A program made the position numbers and the translations under genes. The notes below the pieces were generated by a model. It saw nothing but the letters and a program-made list of their open reading frames with translations. It did not search any database and was not told the origin of the DNA. A DNA stretch of 64,000 bases from positions 22,506,001-22,570,000 of the forward strand of contig OX485803.1 in assembly GCA_950295325.1 (NCBI GenBank), given 5' to 3'. Origin of the DNA: Polytrichum commune. Lineage: Eukaryota; Streptophyta; Polytrichopsida; Polytrichales; Polytrichaceae. Below are positions 806-64,000 of this stretch, in pieces (the stretch's first letter is position 1; every line of letters begins with the position of its first letter).

Positions 806-3800
806 ATGTCGGAAGATGACAAGCTCCTCAAGGAGGCCAAGAAGTGGGCCTGGGAGGACAGGTTGGCGCACAAGAATTGGAAGGTGCGGAATGACGCCAA
901 TATCGACATTGCGGCAGTCTGCGACGGCATCATGGATCCCAAAGATCCCCGCCTCAAGGAATTTGGTAAATGCTCTGTTATGCTCCTTTTATTATTTGTT
1001 CTCCTTTCTCTCCCTGTCTCTGCTGTCTCGATGGACAGACAAGCGGGAGTGATGATGTCTCCCTTGTGGTCTGCGGGGAAAGCAGCAATGGTGAAGTATC
1101 CGAAAGATAACGCTTTCTTGGTGTACCTGAGAGATCTCGGGCGCTGGATATGGCGAAGAATTTGGAAACAAGAAAACACTGTAACTCTCTCTCCCTTCCT
1201 TGATGGTGATTGATTGAGCTTCGGCAAGAGTTAGGTTGCCATTTTGGCTCTACAAAAACCCCTGGGTGCTTGCGGGGGCAAGTTACAGGCAGCTAGGTCG
1301 AGGCTCGCTCGCGTGCATCGGGAAACGTGCACTGGATTTGTAATCTATTACCGGCTCACCTGATTCATACCTCGATGGCTATAATATTTTTCTCTTGAAT
1401 GCCTACTCCCTCCCTCCCTCTCTCTCTCCAATTTCTATTGACAGCAAGAAACGCAAGTTCAACTCTGGACAGTGGATGGTAGTGGCAGCCATGATAGTGT
1501 ATCCTGAAAGTAGTATATCAGGAATTGAACCTGTTTTCTATTTAGATCCTTCGTTCCGAGGGACAAGCCATAGCATTGAATCCTCGTCGGCTGTGACATG
1601 CAAGCATTAAGTCAGATATCCATTAAGAGAGGCAAAGTCTGGCTGTCCAGGGCCCAAGTTGGCGTCTCCTTCGGCAAACAGCGGCCAGGGTTTTCAGCTG
1701 CAACAGTGCCATGACTGTCTTTTGAGGATAGCACGACCATGCCTAATTGATGTCAGATTCAAATATGAGACATAAGTGCAAGACCTAAGTAGTCTAATTG
1801 CATTGCAATCATATTTCTACACATTTTTCAACAATTGTGATTTTAGAAGAAAATTGGAATTCTGAGTGTTAATTATTTGAACAACTTAGCGGCCTTTATT
1901 TAAATCTTTTGTTCCTTGTGCTTGTGAATAGACGTTCTTCATATTTTCTCATAAAACTTTTCTAGGTTTGCTATTGTTTCAAACTGAGTGCGAAATTGCA
2001 AATTAAGTGATACCCTGTATTTCAGACCTAATCGAACTTGAAAGGCGATTTGTCTAGTAATATTGTTATCCAGAAGTGCCGGACTGTTAGGTTACGGACT
2101 GCATGCAACTTGTGGACTACATTTCAGCTGGTTGAGTTGTCTTACCCCACAGTGGTTTTGAAATTGTCGCTCAGTGAGTTGCTGACTACCTAGTTTTTGT
2201 CGGCACTCCTGGGAGAGGAGTTTCAGCTAAGGTGTTGATGCATGAAATAGTTCCTTGTGATCACGCTTATTCACAGCTGAGAATGTCTCCCACATTAGTT
2301 AGTTGGATTAACTCAATCCACACAGTTCACAATCGGTGATGACATAGCAACTATGGCAACCTTACATTCGAGCAATTCACTTATTAATGCTATCTTTTTC
2401 AGATCTTTCTTTTGTACACAAGTTATGCTATGTCACATTGGTAAAGCCTTTTTTTGAAATCACATTGCTGAATTCGAGCTGCCTCAGATGAGAGTGGATT
2501 TCCGGTGATCAACACAAAGTGATACTTTGAGAACTAGATTCTATCAGAGAGAAATTTCGATATTGCATTTGAATAGTGGCTGGAATGGGGCCTGGGTTTG
2601 AGAATACCTCCACAAGACTATGGAGCAGAGAGAGTCTTGATTAAGTTGGTGGTGGTACTGATTATTTGTGTACAGACTGGCGGGAAAGGGTATACCTTAC
2701 CATCCCTGCTTTAAAGTAGGTTTCAGAGAGTGAAGTCTTACCTTCATTGCAAGGTCTGTTGGCTTTAAGGGGATCTTTGCATTACGTACCTCTCTATATA
2801 GATACGCATATTAGTCTTTCTCTACACTGACGTCAATTTGCAGATGTATCTGCATAATCAATAATTTGGCAAAGGCAAATTCACCTTTTGCATCTAATTA
2901 CATTTGAAACCAAGATGACATATTTAGGTTTTACATTTGAAACCAAGATGACATTTGAAACTTGGTTGTGTCTCTGGGGCCAACTTTCAGTAGAAGCTAA
3001 GAAAGTCTCGAGCAAGTAGTTGAATGGCTCTTGTGTGCAGTTAGATATCTGGTCATGAACCTGTGGCAGCTTTGTAACTAGAAGAGACTGTTATTTCTCG
3101 ATGTTGTAATGCAATTCCAGATTGTCTACAGCTTGTTGTTGATGCCTACTCCTGAAGTTTTGTCATGCTAATGTAGGATTCACCTTCTGTGAATGGTGCA
3201 GGACCGTTATTCAGAAAAGGAGTTGCTGATTCTAATGCTCCTTGTCAAGAGAAAGCGTTGGATGCTCTCATTGCTTACCTTCGAGCTGTGGATACAGATG
3301 CTAGCAGGCATGTGTTCGAAGCCTTATTTGTATTGGCATGTACAATAGGAAACAGTCTCCAAGTCCGAACTTGTTTATAATTGGCAATGGATTTGTGACT
3401 TGCTCTGCCTCTTCTCATCAATTTGACTTGGGAATCTATAGGCTCTCGTGTAGGAGGAAAGTTATTTGTCATAGATGATTACTTTAAACTCTATATGTGT
3501 AAAGTGTCTATTGTTTCAAGCAGGTTCAATTCTATCTGGAAGGTCATGGGTCTTCCTAGTCACTTTCATTATCTATTGTGTAGGTATGGATAGGTTATTC
3601 TAGCCAAGAGAGGTTAGCCGTTCAGATTAATATTTGACATTGGAGTTTGTACCCACCGTGAAGACTTGGAAATATTTTTCACAAATGGGTAGAAGGACTG
3701 TTGTAGCTTCTGATAGTGCTGTACTTCGAATTACAATTCTTTCTCTTGGTGCGACCCTTGGATTGTCCTTGTCGATGTTGGACCCTATTGTGAAACTTAT

Positions 3801-6800
3801 ATTACTGGAAAACGATGGTCTTCTTTCATTTATTCTCAAACTTTGGCCTTTGGATCTCAAATTTTTGGTTCACATTATTGATACGTGGCCAACAACTTCA
3901 ACTCTGCCCACTGTTCAGAGTGGGTCGTATTTCTATTTGTATTTGCAACTTATCACATCATATCCTTAACTCTTTACTTAGTAATTTAAATGACAAATGA
4001 GCAACCTTGGAAAGAGACAGATATGATAGTGTAATTGGTGCTTCCACATATACTGTCATTGAGTTTTCATCTTATTCTTATTGTGAGGCACTAGTCTATG
4101 AAAGAATGTGTAATTGTTCATGGAGCACTGATCCTCCATATTTTATGCACAACATACTGATATTTCTTGCATAACTTCTCTGTGCCCCAGCATTGTACTT
4201 ATTGTTATGATGTATCTGATGGTGCAGATATGCTAAGGAGACATGTGATTCCATAGTTGCGAAATGCTTAACAGGGCGGCCTAAAACTTTGGAGAAGTCA
4301 CAAGCAGTCTTCCTTCTCTGGGTTGAACTTGAAGCTACAGATGCTTTTCTGGTCTGTGCCTCTCTCTTAGTTAGAAGTATGCAAGATTTTGACCGTTTCT
4401 CAAACTCATTCATATCTTACTTGCATGTGTGTTTTTTTTAAAAATAATTTTTTTAATTATTATTTTAGCAGCTGTCTTGTATTTGAATGTATTGAGCATC
4501 ATACTTGTTTGAAACTCCACAATTAGTATGCACTCCTTTGTTGTTATGGACTTGTATGTCTTGAAAGGTAGGCGTTTCACTGATTATAGCGGACATATGA
4601 CGTGCTAATGAAGCTGTCAGAGTTTTGAATTTCCAGGATGCTATGGAGAAAGCTGTGAAAGCAAAGCTGGCCAAGGCTGTGGTGCCTGCTATTGATGCCA
4701 TGTACCAAGCTGTCAGGTGTGTGTATAAATGTTGCATAGAGTTTTGTGCCTTAATGTTGTGGATGGTTGTTCTTATGTGGGAGCTCTTTCTCATTTTTGT
4801 TGTGTGTTATGTCTCTTTTAGTGCATTTGGAACCAAAGTGGTACCCCCCAAGCGAATCATGAAGATGCTTCCGGAATTATTTGATCATCCTGATCAAAAT
4901 GTCAGAGCCTGTTCAAAGGGGTTGACAATTGAACTCTGCCGGTGGATTGGGAAGGATGCTGTCAAAAATCTTCTGTTTGACAAGATGCGAGACACTATGG
5001 TAAGTTGGTCAGACATGAGACATGACAAGATTGCTATTACATGCTGCTGCAAGGGGGTTGGTATGTAGAAGCCTGTTGATCTTGCAAATAGGGGACTTTA
5101 TAATGCTGAGTCTGTCTCACATATTGGTTATTGGTTGTTTGGACAGAAAAAGGAGTTGGAAATGGAAGTTGACAATGTTGTTGTTGGCTCTAAACCCACA
5201 CGTAAAATCAGGTGTGGTGCCTGGCTTTGATTTACCTAGTTCATGATAGTGCAAATTGAAATTCAAATGCTATGATATTATGTTGTAGAGTGGGATTTGG
5301 CTGGCTGTAATTCATACGTTGTCATGCATAATCTGCTACAATCTGTCACGGCAAGCTGTGTTTCTCCAATAAGCTTGTTTGTATGGCATACCGTTCATTG
5401 GTTTTTCAATCTTTAGTAAACCTTCATGAGAAATTTGGTTGTCTCAATGCAGGTCCGAGCAGGCCCTAGAATGTGAACAAACCGCAGTAGCTTCTGTCAC
5501 CCCTGCTGGACCTGCAGATGATGCTGCAGCAACAGGTATTTGACATTAAAAAAAAATTAGTTTCTTGCAAATGTTTCTATGCATGTGATTCTTAATCATA
5601 GTTCAGGGAATTTTGTTCTGAGCTGCCTGGTGTGTATTTCAGGTTCTCTGGATGTGGATGAGTACGACCTGGTGGATCCTGTGGACATATTGACACCTTT
5701 GGGGAAGTCTGGTTTTTGGGATGGAGTCGTAAGTGCTTAATTGCCAACCTGAAACATTTTCTTATTTTATTTGCCCTTATATCAAATTGCCGGGCTGAGT
5801 GGTCAGACTTGGAAAATTTGTGAGTAAAGCTGACATGTGTAGGACCAGCCTTTACTTGTATTTCTGTCTCTGTATAGTGAAAGGTGGTGTAGGATTGGTT
5901 GAAGCTTTTTATCCTGAAAGTATGGTACCTTACATGCAAGGCTGCCAGGATTCACATTCCTTAAGATCTTCTTGCTGAGCTTTCACTGCTGGTTAGTTAA
6001 GAGCCATACTTGATTTAGAAAGAGCTATGTAGCAATCATTGGTCATGTATTTTGAAGCTTATACGTGGGCTTTTTCTTTGGATCCTGGATATGTGAGGTT
6101 GCTGGAGAAAGATCATTGCCTTAGTCTGTCGATGTGACATAGTAATATTACTCTTGCTATGTACTCTTGCTAGTGGAGCCTTTCTATGTATGTCTCTCGC
6201 AAACAAACAGAATTGGTCTTCCAACGTTTCGGTTCTGCAGAAAGCAACAAAATGGTCTGAAAGGAGGGATGCAGTTGCTGAGCTGACGAAATTGGCTTCA
6301 GTTAGAAAAATTGCGAATGGTGATTTCTCAGAAGTATCACGAATCCTTAAGAAGGTTAGCAGACTTTGTTGTTGGTGGTTCTCTATTTTCTGTGAAGGCT
6401 ATACAGAAGATTTGTACAATGCCTGTGATATTCAAGAGGATGTATTCAAGTTCTGTGCCTTGATGGTTTGAACTGGTATATATATTTGCTATAATCTGGT
6501 TGTACATGTTGCGAGTCTGTAGTATCTGTTGGCTTTCACTTGTAGGACTCTTTATCAGCTTGCTGAGATACTTACAAGAAAAGTTGTAATTGGTTGTGCA
6601 GCTTGTCACAGATGTAAATATAGCAGTTGGTGTTGAGGCAGTTCAAGCAATTGGCAATTTGGCAAGTGGTTTAAGGAAGGATTTCACCTCTGGTTCTAGG
6701 CTGCTGCTTCCTGTTCTATTGGTAAGCAAAACAAGTTCCATTTAATCTTGTTGATTGCTGTCTGTTCAGATGTACTCCTTTGAGTATTGAATTTATTGTT

Positions 6801-28916: not shown

Positions 28917-29741
28917 ATGCTGCAGAGATTTGGGAAAGGCAGTGGGGCGAAAATCGGATGTGATTGCCAACAGCACCAAGATGGGGGAGGAGGTCAAAAA
29001 GGCTCAGTGAGTCCAGGATCCGAAGGAGGAGCATCAAGCAGGGGCTTAGATGAGGGTTTGGAGTGCCCAGTATGCTGGGAGAGCTTTGATGATGGAGAAA
29101 ATACGCCTTATGTCCTATGGTGTGGCCATTCGCTGTGCAAAAATTGTGTTCTTAGCTTACAATGGGCAGTTATCAAGCTCCCAGGCCTCCCTTTGCAGCT
29201 GCCACTCTTCATCTCCTGCCCATGGTGTCAGTTTCTCACATTCCGGTTCACATGGAAGGGATTGCTGAAATACCCTTGTAAAAATTTCTTCCTACTCTGG
29301 GTGGTGGAGAGCATGCGTGGGGATGCTAATAGGCCATCACCGAATTTTACCTCTGAAGAGACTGAGCCCCAGCATGTGGTGTTCCCACCTTCCAGGCTGG
29401 TGTCTCCTCGTGCTATGCGGCCGGTGCATGGGTTTGATCATAGAGGTTCTCAAGGGTTAGCAACCCCGCGGCAATCTGCTATGTTACCGGATGTGAGTAG
29501 ATGGGACTTGACCCATTGGAGGAGATCTGGCATTCGGCTTGCGGCGTCCTTCTTGCAGTTCACCTCAAAACTTCCCCTTGTGTTGTTGTTTTTGTTCATA
29601 GTGGTGTACGTGCTCCCTTTCAGCACCCTGGTGCTTGCCCTCTATTGCTTGGTCACTGTTCTGTTTGCAGTGCCCTCTTTCCTTGTGGTATACTTCTCGT
29701 ATCCAAGTTTGGACTGGTTAGTGCGCGCAATTGTGACATAA
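28917..29741 (+). CDS. RING-HC (C3HC4) E3 ubiquitin ligase-like protein with two C-terminal membrane segments
   Basis: Protein of 274 aa in one exon. A low-complexity Gly/Ser-rich N terminus (1-45) leads into a RING finger with ligands C50, C53, C69, H71, C74, C77, C101, C104: CPVC, then LWCGHSLCKNC, then SCPWC. The unusually long loop between the sixth and seventh ligands (23 residues, IKLPGLPLQLP) resembles a family of plant membrane RING proteins. Residues about 219-233 and 236-260 are strongly hydrophobic, so the protein is probably membrane-anchored by a C-terminal hairpin with the RING in the cytosol. The expected role is ubiquitin transfer from an E2; substrates are unknown. The start ATG is the first in frame after a T-rich leader. 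The end of this gene is repeated downstream in a tandem array. I cannot assign a gene symbol. Confidence 0.85.
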   Translation: MLQRFGKGSGAKIGCDCQQHQDGGGGQKGSVSPGSEGGASSRGLDEGLECPVCWESFDDGENTPYVLWCGHSLCKNCVLSLQWAVIKLPGLPLQLPLFISCPWCQFLTFRFTWKGLLKYPCKNFFLLWVVESMRGDANRPSPNFTSEETEPQHVVFPPSRLVSPRAMRPVHGFDHRGSQGLATPRQSAMLPDVSRWDLTHWRRSGIRLAASFLQFTSKLPLVLLFLFIVVYVLPFSTLVLALYCLVTVLFAVPSFLVVYFSYPSLDWLVRAIVT

Positions 29742-40959: not shown

Positions 40960-41751
40960 TCACGATTCTGTACAGTACGTCTGTGAACATATCCTGGTGG
41001 AATTGACATAACCTGGAGAATCACCAAGTTCAATTTCAACATCCAATGCAAGAGAACTAAAAGGAAATTGAAATGAATATGAAAATGAACAAGATCGTGA
41101 AGCGGTGATTCCGGCAAGGTTGAAAAGTAGTGCTACATACGTCGGAGGATCAAAGTCTCTCATCGGAGGCAGAATCGACACGCGAGCGCCATTGGACTTA
41201 TCACCAACTGCGTCGCCATACGGGCCATAGGGCATAATAGCAACTGTCAATAGGAAGGATCGTTTGCATACTCTCGGAGCATGTACCGGCTGGTTTTGAC
41301 AAAGTAGGCAGTGATACCATGATAGTCTTGTTTCCTTCTGGAACACGAGAAGGCTGCGCACAATGCGGTCTATTAGAATCTCTAGAATGATCTTCGCGTC
41401 AACGTGGGCCATCCCCCGAGAAACTATTCCATTTGCCATTAAGTCCATATCAACCATTAACCTGGATATCAATCCCCTTTCTACGATTTCTTCATCGAGA
41501 CTAGGGAACGGAGGAGGTTTATGAACTAATGGTACTAAGCGTTCAAGGCAGCGCCCTACTTTGTAGAAAAGTGCGCACCCCAGGGGTGTCAAAGTACTCA
41601 CACATAGAGCTGGGAGAGGCGCATCCAAGGGATACCACGCAAAAGCACTGTGCTGTGGTATCCCCGGTTCACCTGCGCCGCTAATTGTCACATAGTCCAA
41701 CAAATCCCGCCGGACAACGTTTGAGCTAATTTCGTCCACTCTTCTTTCCAT
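40960..41751 (-). CDS. Family X copy A: unknown protein with partial CxxC motif and SILPP-FDPP block
   Basis: Single-exon ORF of 263 aa; function not recognised. The start Met directly follows an in-frame stop, in a GGAGAATTA...ATGGA context shared with the other copies, which supports this start. The putative metal-binding motif HCLLCQNQPVHAPRVC has C148, C151 and C162, but the fourth ligand is Ser165, where copies B and C have Cys. Residues 192-211 hold the family's best conserved block, SILPPMRDFDPPTYVALLFN. It is followed by a Ser/Phe-rich hydrophobic stretch (about 216-236), possibly a membrane segment. Relative to B and C it has about 14 extra residues before the SILPP block (YGPYGDAV). 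A single-pass or peripheral membrane protein with a small zinc site is inference. Confidence 0.55.
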   Translation of the reverse strand: MERRVDEISSNVVRRDLLDYVTISGAGEPGIPQHSAFAWYPLDAPLPALCVSTLTPLGCALFYKVGRCLERLVPLVHKPPPFPSLDEEIVERGLISRLMVDMDLMANGIVSRGMAHVDAKIILEILIDRIVRSLLVFQKETRLSWYHCLLCQNQPVHAPRVCKRSFLLTVAIMPYGPYGDAVGDKSNGARVSILPPMRDFDPPTYVALLFNLAGITASRSCSFSYSFQFPFSSLALDVEIELGDSPGYVNSTRICSQTYCTES

Positions 41752-42650
41752 TTAATTCTCCACGCTGTCAGAAAATCTGTCTGAGCAGCTAATTATACGA
41801 ACGCTCGAGACTTGTCAATAGATGGATCTGGCCGACACAACCCTGTCTGAGGATAAAACCGATCCCACAATTCTATGCAGTTGCAATTGCAATATGTTGA
41901 GGAAAAAGTCCACTGCACGCTGTTCGTATTCAATAGGATATACTAAAACGGGCCGCCTGGCATATCGACAAAAGCAACAGTCTCAAGGTAGCTCTCTCCG
42001 ACAACGTTTGAGATTGAAGAAGCACTTGCTAGCTGGAGCGAAGAAACCAAGACGAGTCAAGCGCCGGATCACGAGATGGTAATTCTCAGCAGCTAACCAG
42101 TGTGATCATAGCATGCTACAGGAGATGCCTAGTACACACCTAGACGATGTGACTTTCGAGTGCGATCTGTACATGAATGGATTCATGCCTGCATCGTGAC
42201 TGTAAACCTGCATGTCGATGAGGAAGATAATTGCCCTCAGATTGTGTTTGGGATTTTCTGGCTACTAATTTGCTCTGCATATCATGCAACAGAAGGCGCA
42301 AGGAGCTTCAAGGCGCAATTGCAACACGAACCAACCGACGCAAGAATTCGATGAGCTGATCCCGGAGACAACCAAGAGTGAACAAGTGGATTCATGCAGC
42401 AGATCATCAGACATGCGCCGAGGACCATTCAGAGTCGGCATGAGCCATGGAATAGGTATTAGTGTGAGGAGGCCAATTAACCGGAGTTATATTTCAATTT
42501 CTGCCAACTCAGCAGATTGCCACATCATCTTCAGTAAACTTGCCACCTCAGCCATATTCCAAGATGACCAGGCTTGGCTGCAAGGCTCCAGAAGACATTT
42601 CGAACTCACGAAACTTCTCGCCCTTCTAGAATGATCCTCCGTCTTCCTGA
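41752..42650. other. Conserved upstream segment of family X copy A
   Basis: This block is recognisable next to all four copies (48617-49480, 63129-63970 and 44874-45500). It holds short open frames on both strands, none of which stays open in every copy. On the + strand an MD(L/V)AD...LS(E/D)DK start, a VTxDxDLY...FM block and an NQPTQxxDELIP block recur. On the - strand a RLGFFAPA block recurs. It may be a 5' leader or promoter, or a decayed divergent partner gene. The sequence does not decide. Confidence 0.35.
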
Positions 42651-42970: not shown

Positions 42971-45500
42971 CAATCTGGGGCTTGGCAGGAGTTGCTTATG
43001 GATATTCCTAAGTCATGTGCTCCATTAGTGCGAGTTCCTAGATATGCTAGCACCATGACACTTCTCCATTAAAAAATTGCATTATGTGAATGGAATTTTT
43101 GTATGAAATGCATTCTACGTTGTGAAAATGCCACTTGCAGTGTAGGTTCTCATCACTTCGATAATAAAGCTCAACGTAAGAGGACTTTATTGAAGCGGAA
43201 CATGAGCTTACTATGATGTAGTAGTTTTCCACGCGAGATGTGTCATGAATACATTTTGAAAGTATCAATTACATTCCAGAATATTCTCATTACTACTTTT
43301 AGTAGATCTTGATGCATAATGCGTTGAGCCCTGCTCATGTGGTGAGATATGTTATGATCACCTATCAGGATCACAAAGAGAAAAATGAACAAATGTCATG
43401 GAATCCTGCTTCTCAGCTTTGCATCCTTGAAGGCCCCGTGATCTTTATGATCATATAATCTTCAAAGGTCAATGTAGTCAATGCAATATGGAAGGTTGCA
43501 GAGCCAAACTGGAGTGACTTGCACGGGCTCATGTTCATTTTGCTGTTCGTTATCCTGGTCAATGATCCAAAATTAATTTTCTCACAGCAAAACAGGGCTC
43601 ACCACATCACTCTATTCTGATGAGATCATCTCAAGCTCTGCCGCGATGGCAAATCGATAGTCACCCTATAGGGTGCATCTTATGTAATAATTTTGTGGAA
43701 TCACACTATGTAGATGTCTTGCAACACGCCACGACACGCATCCCACACAACACATCATATCCAAAGAGAAAAGATCATCAGAAGCTTCATGAATCAAATT
43801 CAGAGCGTACCACTGCAATTGTGTTTTTGCCAGAAAAATACATGTATTTATGTAAACGTTAACGCGCAAGAGCTGTTATTATATCGAATGGATGCCTGGA
43901 TTTTTCCTTAAGTTCTTCTTGATGTAACGAAACCTAAATTTACTCCTGCCACATTTGTGCAACGCGTATAGCCACGGTACCGCTTATTAATTGCGCTTGC
44001 AGCTTGTGCTTGTGAGTTTTTAATGACGTCTCTCGGGCTCGCGCTCGCAGGACCCCAGATGACTCTACTCGCGAGCGGCGAGGACAACTCAGGTTACATC
44101 AAGAATGGGAGGACTAAGTACCCTATCATGTGTTGAGTGTCATTTTGTCCTTTACACTTCACTTGATATGAATGTGTGTCGTAATGACATGACCGCTTCA
44201 GCAAGAACTGTTGTCAATGCATGTCAATTTTCATTTCAATTTCCTATGAGTTTTGTTGTATTGGATATTTAACGTGGACTTGCTAATCCTCTAGGTTATG
44301 CGAAAGCCACCAGAATATGTTCAGGAGCATCAAACTGTCTCAACGGAGGCAGTCGAAACGCAAAGGCCATTGTAGGTATGACGAACTTCCAATATGAAGG
44401 AAAGGGCGCATGCTCTCCGGAGTCCGTGCAGGTACCGGCGGATTTTGACAACAAAGGCAGCATGATCGTGATGGTCTTGTTGTCGTCTGAAGCAGGAGAA
44501 GGATGCGCACAATATTGTTTATCAGAGTATCAATAATGATCGTTGTAGGAAGCTAAGCCATTCCCGAAGGAGGAATTCTATCTGCTCGCAACTCTATATC
44601 AAATATCGTCCGTTGCAGCATTGATTCTTCTGCTTCTAGCTGGTCACAGGGAGGTAGTGTGACGCGGAACGGTGAGCGTGAAAGGTGGTTTCGTAACAAG
44701 TGCCCACCTCAGGGGTGTGAAAGTACGCGTAAATGAAAGTGGGAGAGGCTCATTCAAAACACGCGTCACAAGCTGACCGCCCCGCGGATCGAAATCTTTC
44801 CCGGCTCACCTGCATCGTTAATCCTCCCGTACCTCAACAAATCCAGCCGGACGTACCCGCTTGCCGTGGCTATTTTTCTTTCAGTCTGATTCTCCACGCA
44901 GTCACTATAACTGACTGACCAACTTAACATGAAGGGCGGAGACTTATCGGTGGATGGATGTGACCGACACAATCCCTGTCCGAGCTCAAATTCTACCACA
45001 CAAGTATATGCAAATATTGCAATCAACAAACTAGGTTCTACATATATATATTTATATATTCTGAGGAAGTCCGCCTTGCTAGGTGTTCGTATTGAACACA
45101 ACCTACTAACCATGCCGCCCACATCGACGGGAACAAAACTCTCTCTCGCTCTCCGACAACCCCAAGATTGAAGAAGAAGTTGTCGGAGCGAAGAAAGCAA
45201 GGCGAGTCACTGGTTGGATGAGATGATGATTCTCAGCAGCCTGCAGCTCATCATGTGGGATCATAGTACTATGCTGGAGATACCCACAGACCGAGACAGT
45301 GTGACTTCCGACTGCGATTTGTATAAGAATGGATTCATGCACTATATCCATCGTGAATGTAAAATTGCATGATGAGGAGGATAATTCTGCTGCCTGTCTC
45401 AAATATAATTCTCCTTGAGTAGGATCTGCTACTTTGCCGTGCAGACGACGCGCGGAAGGAGCATCAAGGATCGACTGAGACACGAACCATTTTGTACATA
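42970..45500. repeat. Tandem duplication, right unit (contains pseudogene D)
   Basis: Right-hand partner of the unit starting at 39560, with the same order of landmarks up to the segment upstream of family X. It is about 3.4 kb downstream of the left unit in the same orientation. Confidence 0.6.
44050..44873 (-). pseudogene. Family X pseudogene D
   Basis: Aligned to copies A-C, the start codon is ATA instead of ATG (44871-44873) within the same GAAAGAAAAAT context. The frame then reads through LDLLRYGRINDAGEPGK, similar to copy A's RDLLDYVTISGAGEPG, and hits a stop at codon 37. The cysteine-motif region survives only across frameshifts: a CCLCCQNPPVPA-like frame breaks off, and the SILPP block is lost. 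It is a dead copy, in the right-hand tandem unit. Confidence 0.7.
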
Positions 45501-46958: not shown

Positions 46959-47830
46959 TTTGCAACTATACTTGTGGTTGTGCATAAGAAAAAGTTTTGC
47001 AACAGAGTATCGAAACCCAGAGAGAGAAGAACATCATCAGAACACCACTGCAATTTCGTTGTGCCAGAATTTCTTTTTGTTACGTAATAATAGGATTCTG
47101 CCGTTAAGAAGGTTGGAAAAATACATCTCATGGGTCAGGTCAGTGACCCCATTGCGCCGTGCCCAGGACCAGCTCTGAGAAGATTCAACTCAAAATGTAA
47201 CACGAAACACAAGTAACTAGATGCAGATACCCAACTTAGGGTCACACAACCAGCCATCTGGTTTTAGTGTGCATTTTGTAGGAGGTTTGAGAAGCATGCA
47301 AGTGTAATAATTCCAGTTCTCAACGATTTTCCAAAAGATCCCTCTCATGCGCACCCCATCACATCAAATTGCTCGATGTAGTGATTAACCAGGTGCAGGA
47401 ATCTCCGTGACATGATGTGCTGTCAACAAGAGTGGCTTGGAGTTGCTGAATGGGCCAGCATATAGAACCTGAATAATTTCCGCATCGGTTCTAGCGAGCC
47501 AAATAATAATCCATAGAGCAAGTTTGTAACCGGCGTCAAAATAGGTGAGAAGTTAGGGTGAAGGGAATGACGAAGCTGGTGTCCTCCAAAGCGGCATTCA
47601 AGTTCCCACGAGAGTCTGATCTCAACTTATAGTCCCGGTTTGATCGCCACTATCATTAAGCTGCACGACATGTACAATGCACAAGAGCAGTAATATTGGT
47701 GCAATGGATGCCCGCCCTTTTCTAACTACTTCCTGATCATGTAATGGATTCTACTCCCCATCGCAGGTTACACATTTGTGCACCACGTATACCCACCGTA
47801 CCACTTATTGCACTTGCAGCTTGCGAATTT

Positions 47831-48616
47831 TCAATGATACGACCTCTCGCAGTACCACACATGCGGCGTGCACGCGGGGTTGGCGGTCACGATTCTATAC
47901 ATTAGGGATTTGAACTGCTCCTGGTGGATTCGGCATAACCTGGAGGATTTATCATGTTCACGTTTAACATCCGATACAATAGAATTCACAAGAAATTGAA
48001 ACACGATGGAAATGAATAGGGTCATGAAGCTGTAACTCCCGCAAGGGTTGAAAAGTAGTGTGACATACGCCGGAGGATCAAACTCTCTCAACGGAGGCAG
48101 AATCGACACTTCAGCATTGGGAACGCCATCACTGATGTGCCGGACTACTGATTTGAAGCAGCCGTCGCATACTCTCGGCGCAGGTACCGGCGGGTCTTCA
48201 CAGCAAAGGCAGTGCGGCCGTGATGTGCTCGTTGGCGTCTGAAGCATGAGAAGGATATCCATAAGGAGGTCTGTCAGAGTGTATATTATGGTGGCTGCAG
48301 GGACCCGAGCCATCTCCTTAGGAACCATTCCAAGTGCCACATCTGCCATATCATTGATTATCTGTTTCATCAGGAGCCCCTGCAATGCTAGGGATTGATG
48401 GGCTAACGGTGCGCGTGCAAGGAATTCCCGTGATTGGTAGACAAGTGTCCATCCCAGGGCTGTCAAATTACCTATCGCAAATGGAGGTATGGGAGAAAGA
48501 TCCAAAACGTGCCAGAAAATAAGCTGGTTCCCCGGACCGAATTTTATCGACTGACCTTGGGTGTAACAAACTAATTGCTCCAAATCCGGGCGGTAGTGTC
48601 CTGTCCTTCCTTCCAT
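47831..48616 (-). CDS. Family X copy B: unknown protein with C-x2-C-x10-C-x2-C motif
   Basis: Single-exon ORF of 261 aa; function not recognised. An in-frame TAG lies four codons upstream of the start Met. Putative metal-binding motif: C136-x2-C139-x10-C150-x2-C153 (CLCCEDPPVPAPRVCDGC). Next come SILPPLREFDPPAYVTLLFN (171-190) and a hydrophobic segment FMTLFISIVFQFLV (197-210), probably one membrane span, with a basic Cys-containing tail. The N-terminal half is amphipathic and leucine-rich. Compared with copy C, 28 residues differ and almost no codon differs silently; changes cluster at 25-37, 46-47 and 98-113. The cysteines, the SILPP block and the hydrophobic core are unchanged. That argues for a functional, fast-evolving protein. 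Expression cannot be judged from sequence. Confidence 0.65.
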   Translation of the reverse strand: MEGRTGHYRPDLEQLVCYTQGQSIKFGPGNQLIFWHVLDLSPIPPFAIGNLTALGWTLVYQSREFLARAPLAHQSLALQGLLMKQIINDMADVALGMVPKEMARVPAATIIYTLTDLLMDILLMLQTPTSTSRPHCLCCEDPPVPAPRVCDGCFKSVVRHISDGVPNAEVSILPPLREFDPPAYVTLLFNPCGSYSFMTLFISIVFQFLVNSIVSDVKREHDKSSRLCRIHQEQFKSLMYRIVTANPACTPHVWYCERSYH

Positions 48617-49480
48617 TTTTCTTTCAATCTAATTCTCCACCCCAGAACATCCGTCTGAGCAGCTAAATTTGAACGCTGGAGACCTGTCGATGGTTGGATG
48701 TGGCCGACATAGCCCTCTCTGACGACAAATTTACCAAGCACACAAACATATGCAACTGCAAATCACAAGTAGGTGAACGACAAATGTTGAGGAAGTGCAC
48801 ATACATGTTACTTAATCCACGGAGCCTTCTAGCACGAGTACCGCCCACATCGACAAAAACAGAACTTCTTCGAGCTCTCTCGAGAAAATTACTATCGAAG
48901 CAGCGCGTGCTGGAGCGAAGAAACCAAGACGATGATGAATCTCGCCAGCCTGCAGCTCATCATGTGGGGATCGTAGTATGCTGGAGATGCCTACAAAACG
49001 AGACACTGTGACTTCCGACTACGATCTGTACAAGAGTAGATTCATGCGTCCATCGTGAATGTGAAATTTGCATGATGGGGAAGATAATTTTGCAGCCTGC
49101 CTCAAAGGTAATCCTCCGTGCGTAGGATCAGCCGGCTACTCCAATTTTCTGTGCATGTCATGCAGCCGACGACGAAAGGAGCTCCAAGGCCTAATTGCAA
49201 CAAGAACCAACCGACGCAAGCTTTGGATGAGCTCATCCCTGGGACAGCAAGAGTGAAGAAGTGGATTGATGCAGCGGAACATCAACGCTGCGCGGATTAT
49301 CCGTCGTATGAGGACCGAACTAGTCGGCAAGGCTCCAATCCCAAGACAGAGGGAGGCAAACATTGGAATAACGTCTCTGATCGCGATTGCAAGCAATCGT
49401 GTGGCTCCACCGTGTGCACCCAAGAAAGTTTCAATCTTTTTTTTTTTCCTTCGGTTTGGGTGATCTTGTATGTTTTCTAA
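48617..49480. other. Conserved upstream segment of family X copy B
   Basis: Divergent region upstream of copy B, about 1% different from its counterpart at 63129-63970. A 105-codon + strand frame starting MDVADIALSDDK opens at 48694, but a 1-bp deletion breaks it in copy C. The 120-codon + frame at 49118 stays open in copy C with a 7-codon in-frame deletion. No frame can be called a gene with confidence. Confidence 0.35.
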
Positions 49481-49739
49481 TAATGGAATAAATGTGTCTC
49501 AAATGTGTTGGAACAAAAAGAAATGAAGAAATGTTAGGGTGAGTTTCTATGTAGGTTGCTCGCCCACGAGCATTGGCTGTAGTAAGCCTGGTAGGGCTGG
49601 AGGTGGGTGGCCCCTAAATTTAGGGCAAGGGAGCCAAATTATGTCAAAACATGGAATATTTTGACCCCTCCACCAACATTCCAATTTCCCTAACTTGATG
49701 TGCAGTTCCTTGTATTGCAGTCTAGCTACCCTCTATAAT

Positions 49740-50334
49740 GGCCGGTTCACACGGAGTCCCAAGTCTCGAGTCCCAACATGGAGGTGGATTAAGTCCTGAC
49801 TTTTGAGACGCAAGAAATCATTACAAAGTGATTTATACTCATTCAAATCGGGTCTTGGTCATTTTATGAAAAATGGTTTGTGGGACTTGTGTTGAGAGTT
49901 GGGTCTAGATTAAATATTGTATTTGGTGTCACCTATTGTTTGGAATCACACAATGTTATATCTAAAAACTGTCTATTCCAATGTTTTACCAACACATGTC
50001 AAATTGGTTGTTTCACTTGTTTGGACATTATAGAACAATACCAACTTTACTTGGTAAAAGGTCACATTATTAGTAAAAATATACAACATTGTGTAATTTC
50101 AAATAGTAAGTGATAGTAAATGTCATATTTAGTGAGCTTTTTGCTTGACGCAAAACTCGGCACAAGTCCTAGGCATTGTCTCCATAAAGTGTTGTCATGT
50201 AGGCATCCATGTCATACTTTGGGACTTAGAACTTGGGATCCCATGTGAAGTGGTAAGTCCCAACTTCCATGCACTCAATGGTTGAGATTGCACAAATTGA
50301 TCTGAAGTGACTTGGGACCCCATGTGAACCGGCC
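49740..50334. mobile_element. TIR element (GGCCGGTTCACA...TGTGAACCGGCC)
   Basis: About 595 bp. The ends are inverted repeats of about 26 bp: GGCCGGTTCACACGGAGTCC at left, and GGCCGGTTCACATGGGGTCC as the reverse complement of the right end, both continuing CAAGTC. Its interior contains AATATTGTATTTGGTGTCACC, which recalls the MITEs at 23814 and 56857. Non-coding. I could not identify a target duplication, so the superfamily is open. Confidence 0.7.
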
Positions 50335-61465: not shown

Positions 61466-62342
61466 TTTGCAACTATACTTGTGGTTGTGCATAAGAACAA
61501 GTTTTGCAACAGAATATCGAAACCCAGAGAGAGAAGAACATCATCAGAACACCACTGCAATTTCGTTGTGCCAGAATTTCTTTTTGTTACGTAATAATAG
61601 GATTCTTCCGTTAAGAAGGTTGGAAAAATACATCTCATCGGACAGGTCAGTGACCCCATTGCGCCGTGCCCGGCCAGGACCAGCTCTGAGAAGATTCAAC
61701 TCAAAATGTAACACGAAACACAAGTAACTAGATGCAGATACCCAACTTAGGGTCGCACAACCAGCCATCTGGTTTTAGTGTGCATTTTGTAGGAGGTTTG
61801 AGAAGCATGCAAATGTAAAAATTCCAATTCTCAACGATTTTCCAAACGCTCCCTCTCATGCGCACCCCATCACATCAAATTGCTCGATGTAGTGATTAAC
61901 CAGGTGCAGGAATCTCCGTGACATGATGTGCTGTCAACAAGAGTGGCTTGGAGTTGCTGAATGGGCCAGCATATAGAACCTGAATAATTTCCGCATCGGT
62001 TCTAGAGAGCCAAATAATAATCCATAGAGCAAATTTGTAACCGGCGTCAAAATAGGTGAGAAGTTAGGGTGAAGGGAATGACGAAGCTGGTGTCCTCCAA
62101 AGCGGCATTCAAGTTCCCACGAGAGTCTGATCTCAACTTATAGTCCCGGTTTGATCGCCACTATTCATTAAGCTGCACGACATGTACAATGCACAAGAGC
62201 AGTAATATTGGTACAATGGATGCCCGCCCTTTTCTAACTACTTCCTGATCATGAAATGGATTCTACTCCCCATCGCAGGTTACACATTTGTGCACCACGT
62301 ATACCCACCGTACCACTTATTGCACTTGCAGCTTGCGAATTT

Positions 62343-63128
62343 TCAATGATACGACCTCTCGCAGTACCACACATGCGGCGTGCACTCGGGGTTGGCGGTC
62401 ACGATTCTATACATTAGGGATTTGAACTGCTCCTGGTGGATTCGGCATAACCTGGAGGATTTATAATGTTCACGTTTAACATCCGATTCAATAGAATTCA
62501 CAAGAAATTGAAACACGATGGAAATGAATAGGGTCATGAAGCTGTAACTCCCGCAAGGGTTGAAAAGTAGTGTGACATACGCCGGAGGATCAAACTCTCT
62601 CAACGGAGGCAGAATCGACACTTCAGCATTGGAAACGCCATCACTGATGTGCCGGACTACTGATTTGAAGCAGTCTTCGCATACTCTCGGCGCAGGTACC
62701 GGCGGGTCTTCACAGCAAAGGCAGTGCGGCCGTGATGTGCTCGTTGCCCTCTGAAGCATGAGAAGGATATCCATAAGGAGGTCTGTCAAATTGTATATTA
62801 TGGTGTCTGTAGGGAGCTGAACCATCTCCTTAGGAGCCATTCCAAGTGCCACATCTGCCATATCATTGATTATCTGTTTCATCAGGAGCCCCTGCAATGC
62901 TAGGGATTGATGGGCTAACGGTGCGCGTGCAAGGAATTCCCGTGATTGATAGACAAGTGTCCATCCCAGGGCTGTCAAATTACCTATCACCTGTGGAGGT
63001 ATGGGAGAAAGATCCAAAGGGTGCCCCACAATCCACTTGTCCTCCCGATCGAATTGTATCGACTGACCTTGGGTGTAACAAACTAATTGCTCCAAATCCG
63101 GGCGGTAGTGTCCTGTCCTTAGTTCCAT
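62343..63128 (-). CDS. Family X copy C: unknown protein with C-x2-C-x10-C-x2-C motif
   Basis: Single-exon ORF of 261 aa, co-linear with copy B without any indel. It keeps C136, C139, C150 and C153 (CLCCEDPPVPAPRVCEDC), the SILPPLREFDPPAYVTLLFN block (171-190) and the hydrophobic segment (197-210). Residues 25-37 differ strongly: QFDREDKWIVGHP in C against KFGPGNQLIFWHV in B, a switch from neutral to charged. Further changes are at 46-47, 98-113, 127-128 and 151-152. The start context (tag, ATT GAA AGA AAA ATG) is identical to B. Function is unknown; a small metal-binding, membrane-associated protein is inference. Confidence 0.65.
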   Translation of the reverse strand: MELRTGHYRPDLEQLVCYTQGQSIQFDREDKWIVGHPLDLSPIPPQVIGNLTALGWTLVYQSREFLARAPLAHQSLALQGLLMKQIINDMADVALGMAPKEMVQLPTDTIIYNLTDLLMDILLMLQRATSTSRPHCLCCEDPPVPAPRVCEDCFKSVVRHISDGVSNAEVSILPPLREFDPPAYVTLLFNPCGSYSFMTLFISIVFQFLVNSIESDVKREHYKSSRLCRIHQEQFKSLMYRIVTANPECTPHVWYCERSYH

Positions 63129-63970
63129 TTTTCTTTCAATCTAATTCTCCACCCCAGAACATCCGTCTGAGCAGCTAAATTTGAACGCTGGAGACCTGTC
63201 GATGGTTGGATGTGGCCGACGTAGCCCTCTCTGACGACAAATTTACCAAGCACACAAACATATGCAACTGCAAATCACAAGTAGGTGAACGACAAATGTT
63301 GAGGAAGTCCACATACTGTTACTTAATCCACGGAGCCTACTAGCACGAGTGCCGCCCACATCGACAAAAACAGGACTTCTTCGAGCTCTCTCGAGAAAAT
63401 TACTATCGAAGCAGCGCGTGCTGGAGCGAAGAAACCAAGACGATGATGAATCTCGCCAGCCTGCAGCTCATCATGTGGGGATCGTAGTATGCTGGAGATG
63501 CCTACAAAACGAGACACTGTGACTTCCGACTACGATCTGTACAAGAGTAGATTCATGCGTCCATCGTGAATGTGAAATTTGCATGATGGGGAAGATAATT
63601 TTGCAGCCTGCCTCAAAGGTAATCCTCCGTGCGTAGGATCAGCCGGCTACTCCAATTTTCTGTGCATGTCATGCAGCCGACGACGAAAGGAGCTCCAAGG
63701 CCTAATTGCAACAAGAACCAACCGACGCAAGATTTGGATGAGCTCATCCCTGGGACCGCAAGAGTGAAGAAGTGGATTGATGCAGCGGAACATCAACGCT
63801 GCGCGGATTATCCGTCGTATGAGGACCGAACTAGTCGGCAAGGCTCCAATCCCGAGACAGAGGGAGCCGATCGCGATTGCAAGCAATCGTGTGGCTCCAC
63901 CGTGTGCACCCAAGAGAGTTTCAATCTTTTTTTTTTTCCTTCGGTTTGGGTGATCTTGTATGTTTTCTAA
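63129..63970. other. Conserved upstream segment of family X copy C
   Basis: Counterpart of 48617-49480. The MDVAD frame is broken by a 1-bp deletion near 63316. The + frame at 63629 stays open with 7 fewer codons than in copy B. Most likely leader or promoter sequence, or a partner gene that I cannot resolve. Confidence 0.35.
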
Positions 63971-64000
63971 TAATGGAATAAATGTGTCTCAAATGTGTTG

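Follow-up and report, generated by a model that had tools for sequence, protein, structure and literature searches.

We consider it likely that B, C and D, three young tandem copies of a protein-coding gene in the moss Polytrichum commune, diverged from one another under positive (diversifying) selection. Such selection is a known evolutionary pattern, well supported here, and the gene family in which it occurs is an undescribed moss family. Replacement changes exceed both the silent changes and the changes in the flanks, the assembly holds no donor for them, and the acceleration is lost in copies that were carried into a transposon or are cut short by a stop codon. Copies B and C lie in the window, by which we mean the whole stretch of 64,000 nucleotides analyzed (positions 22506001-22570000 of contig OX485803.1, labelled C1), and D (C1:22577109-22577885) lies 7 kb beyond it. 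All comparisons were made within one 408-Mb assembly (one individual), in which nuclear matches fall on contigs C1 to C7 and the plastid is C8, a placement that probably fits the seven chromosomes (n=7) of the Polytrichales. The PsaB encoded on the plastid contig has its best PDB matches in 7ksq, 6l35 and 8htu, photosystem I structures of the moss Physcomitrium, in agreement with a moss origin. The features of the window are:

62343..63128, minus strand: copy C, one open frame of 261 aa without indel relative to B, alone open among the six frames
47831..48616, minus strand: copy B, 261 aa, from the ORF alignment with C
62988..63056, minus strand: hypervariable patch of C, codons 25-47, from the B/C/D comparison
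48476..48544, minus strand: hypervariable patch of B, codons 25-47, from the same comparison
46959..49756: duplicated block around B, 96.6% identity to the C block
61466..64000: duplicated block around C, continuing ~245 bases beyond the window end
40960..41751, minus strand: older paralogue A, 263 aa, protein ~36% identical to B, with HCLxC...APRVC and SILPPxRxFDPP in common
44424..44657, minus strand: degenerate, stop-interrupted copy, matching residues 69-147 at 41% identity
40445..42227: segment of the A region recurring on contigs C6 and C3 within other repeated DNA, ~96% identity

The block around D shares 94.6-95.9% DNA identity with the B and C blocks (95.9% with 47409-49574 of the former). 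In its ORF, codon 254 is an in-frame stop, which would cost the last eight residues.

Copies B and C (786 nt each) align without an indel and differ at 37/786 bases, altering 28 residues, exactly as a sequence-only reading of the window had counted. That reading divided the differences into 35 replacement and two silent changes; there are indeed two purely silent codons (Tyr60 and Leu114), but the figure of 35 scores all changes in multiply hit codons as replacement, and path-averaging (NG86) gives 33.3 replacement to 3.7 silent. By codon position the differences number 15/17/5. The near flanks differ at 14/931 sites upstream and 4/422 downstream (1.3%) and the whole duplicated block at 30/1989 (1.5%), in keeping with the 1-2% estimated earlier, while the ORF reaches 4.7% (P=3e-6 relative to the block by Fisher's test). 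Silent divergence within the ORF, 1.95%, is close to the 1.3% of the flanks. The clustering that had been described also held on recount, with 12 of the 23 residues at 25-47 differing (25, 27-32, 34, 35, 37, 46 and 47) and 18 changes falling within 69 nt, a density reached in 0/5000 uniform simulations (mean maximum 7.4). Considered by itself, the pair has an omega of 2.95 (P=0.07), and its silent deficit is marginal and not decisive (P=0.01 under a uniform null, 0.07 by Fisher and 0.12 by cluster-preserving rotation), becoming firm only once D is added.

Codon-based dN/dS with further paralogues, which the earlier reading had proposed, was carried out by maximum likelihood on B, C, D and one captured copy (described below), with omega compared to 1 by a likelihood-ratio test. 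With this third paralogue present, omega exceeded 1, the mark of positive selection after duplication, both without use of the flanks (2.90, LRT 8.96, P=0.0028) and with the flanks as neutral reference (3.25, P=6.8e-10). The flank-referenced value was 4.2 over codons 1-143 (P=3e-11) and 2.3 over codons 144-261; outside the patch the flank-free test gave P=0.09. Variable sites among the three copies number 65/783 in the ORF vs 35/1337 in the flanks (P=7e-9), distributed 24/29/12 by codon position. Under a rate-matched null, in which each change stays in place while its codon position and base are randomized, 16.8 silent changes are expected and 6.25 were observed (P about 0.0005); within codons 25-47 the same null expects 5.2, and the patch contains 22.75 replacement and 0.25 silent changes. 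These codons changed independently in all three lineages, for instance at residue 32 (L in B, W in C, S in D) and residue 46 (F, Q and C, respectively), and a second cluster of changes lies at codons 98-128. Lineage B carries 15 replacement and 0 silent changes, and the excess in lineage D, taken separately, falls short of significance (P 0.06-0.20). Indels of 1, 1, 1, 6, 10 and 21 nt separate the flanks of the three copies; the sole ORF indel is a 3-nt deletion in D. A gene in another frame is no explanation, since each of the five other frames is closed by at least 9 stops and changes are equal at codon positions 1 and 2. The diversifying selection proposed in the sequence-only reading is thus supported by a replacement excess in more than one lineage, and more strongly than B versus C alone could show, the evidence from that pair having been weaker than claimed.

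Gene conversion, by which blocks of an older paralogue would have been moved into B or C, is an unlikely source of the patch, although the strong clustering (18 changes in 69 nt) is in its favor, conversion is common in tandem arrays and related degenerate copies are present in the cluster. No sequence in the 408-Mb assembly was found with either patch: 91-bp patch probes returned only the B and C loci, D and captured D-type copies, the last two at 80-84%. Patch states match A or E at chance level (A=B 14, A=C 13, other 10), and conversion from either was rejected, there being no excess of matching states. With no donor, and with A and E states matching B and C about equally, conversion is therefore disfavored. 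Blocks from an older copy would moreover bring silent changes, which the patch almost entirely lacks, and the three lineages all changed separately. The search for a donor paralogue, also proposed earlier, thus leaves the conversion alternative without one, and within this one assembly no conversion tract explaining the changes was found.

Partial copies of the gene occur on contigs C4, C3 and C2, each comprising codons 1-144 and ~935 bp upstream, with ends that are always identical, inside a repeat that is ~98-99% identical across >7 kb. The C4 element is:

C4:43239435-43253217: element of 13.8 kb, bearing inverted ends and flanked by target duplications of 9 bp; counterparts on C3 and C2

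The C4 repeat and the 13-kb C3 repeat have matching inverted ends (GCTATCTTGTGAGCGGTGAGC) and lie between direct 9-bp duplications of the target site, ACTGTGCCC and TTACTGCTT. A ~157-bp minisatellite lies in the C4 element together with the captured piece of the B/C/D family, and the element also encloses a 354-aa open frame. Pack-MULEs capture host gene fragments, and MULEs with long TIRs are the subject of PMC3310237. Inverted ends, a target duplication within the 8-11 bp range and a host gene fragment were all found in the C4 and C3 copies, giving the element the anatomy of a Pack-MULE; we call it Pack-MULE-like. Its size (13-13.8 kb), similar inverted ends, 9-bp duplications and possession of the 5' half of a gene are as in Pack-MULE gene capture, whereas its inverted ends look short; the assignment is by structure. 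Capture of this kind accounts for the dispersed copies, not for the difference between B and C.

The captured ORF is D-type and has 14 D-lineage changes in common with D over codons 1-143, from which it follows that most D-lineage change in these codons predates capture. We rejected the copies on C2, C3 and C4 as independent paralogues, as a D-type copy was captured by the transposon once and gave rise to all three, and they were treated as having one origin and not as independent data. A further captured copy seemingly lies in two pieces ~108 kb apart (C4:1802527-1803133 and C4:1910541-1910702), the gap suggesting a later insertion or rearrangement.

These copies bear on whether a mutation hotspot, or clustered multi-base mutation, could have produced the pattern without selection on the protein. 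Such an origin would fit the clusters, the occurrence of two or three changes in each of several codons and the low transition/transversion ratio of the ORF (15 transitions to 22 transversions between B and C), but we regard it as very unlikely. Silent changes are missing at the matched local rate, and changes in ORF and flanks, 42 vs 20 on the pre-capture branches, number 3 vs 10 post-capture (P=0.004). After capture, both in the captured copies and in the stop-bearing D, the replacement excess is gone and the ORF and flank rates are similar, which argues against a hotspot, as the same DNA is not hypermutable as such.

It is highly improbable that slow flanks, constrained or homogenized, merely make the ORF look fast, the gene being relaxed and not positively selected. 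The upstream flank is in part conserved even in A, and parts of it run for ~300 bp without any difference between B and C; the flank-free test nonetheless still gives an omega of 2.9 (P=0.003), which rules against relaxation, since relaxation cannot exceed 1. Between A and the A-type copy on C6, furthermore, the flanks change as fast as the ORF (38/951 vs 26/792). The idea that this C6 copy is another gene under positive selection was rejected: its changes resemble those of neutral DNA, with no acceleration of the ORF, differences of 9/8/9 by codon position and an omega of 0.75. Comparison of A with B gives an omega of about 0.95, at which constraint is not detectable; as A is also frame-shifted across the hydrophobic span, long-term coding constraint is not demonstrated, and a value near 0.95 neither proves nor denies it. 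Least credible is a selfish conflict in which the family diversifies to escape a decoy product or small RNA of its Pack-MULE-like captors, for although two separate family segments (D-type and A-type) lie in dispersed repeats and the D-type capture still has its ATG and 144 codons open in 2/3 copies, escape from a small RNA should alter silent sites as well, elements of this type often pick up genes and a capture may mean nothing, and the A-type carrier may be another element.

The protein of the positively selected copies contains a CxxC-x10-CxxC motif, a SILPP block and, around residues 192-214, a hydrophobic stretch. All three, including the four cysteines, are unchanged between B and C, as had been stated, but the hydrophobic stretch is absent from A. 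Pfam yielded no match for B, C or A (E up to 1) or for the C6 copy (E up to 5), and a PDB sequence search none up to E 10; these searches revealed no domain of the known plant immune or recognition families. An AlphaFold2 model from a 4-sequence alignment had a mean pLDDT of 36 and was unusable, and a literature search for comparable moss families returned nothing relevant. Because there is no Pfam match, PDB relative or confident model, we infer the role of the protein from the selection pattern only. After duplication, B, C and D probably diverged by diversifying selection mainly at codons 25-47, with the second cluster at 98-128, each copy perhaps being altered so that an exposed N-terminal surface binds different or changing partners. 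The partner might be a selfish element, some molecule of a pathogen or a non-self counterpart; the scaffold may be kept by the SILPP region and the Cys4 motif, the latter possibly a small module that binds metal. A role in recognition (immunity, self/non-self or gamete) is plausible on the sequence pattern. The fuller proposal, that the moss tandem family encodes diversifying proteins for the recognition of self/non-self, gametes or pathogens, with the N-terminal segment as putative specificity surface, is doubtful at present, and we know of no diversifying recognition-protein system of such a kind named by sequence in mosses.

Diversifying selection is familiar from tandem plant recognition genes, such as NLR leucine-rich-repeat clusters, S-locus genes and LURE/defensin-like attractants. 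The moss copies resemble these in forming a young tandem array with a replacement excess in one segment, scaffold residues that are kept and broken copies nearby. In contrast, the moss family has no Pfam domain, leucine-rich repeats, obvious signal peptide or defensin cysteine pattern. Strong protein diversification at 2-3% silent divergence is not often seen, and the genes that show it are usually in biological conflict. Here the pattern flags both the family and a 23-residue segment within it, and the transposon-frozen copies provide a built-in neutral control.

Other coding regions were observed in the window. Exons of an XMAP215/MOR1-type TOG-domain gene (806-5068, plus strand) occupy its start, and a single-exon gene for a plant-type RING finger protein of 274 aa lies at 28917-29741 (plus strand). 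Upstream of B, on the opposite strand, is a 120-aa open frame (49118-49480, plus strand; also near 42267-42370 and 45222-45426), and corresponding frames occur at A, C and D and in the captured copies. Blocks such as NQPTQxxDELIP are kept in it between the old paralogues; it may be what is left of an exon, or another gene that occupies the same region.
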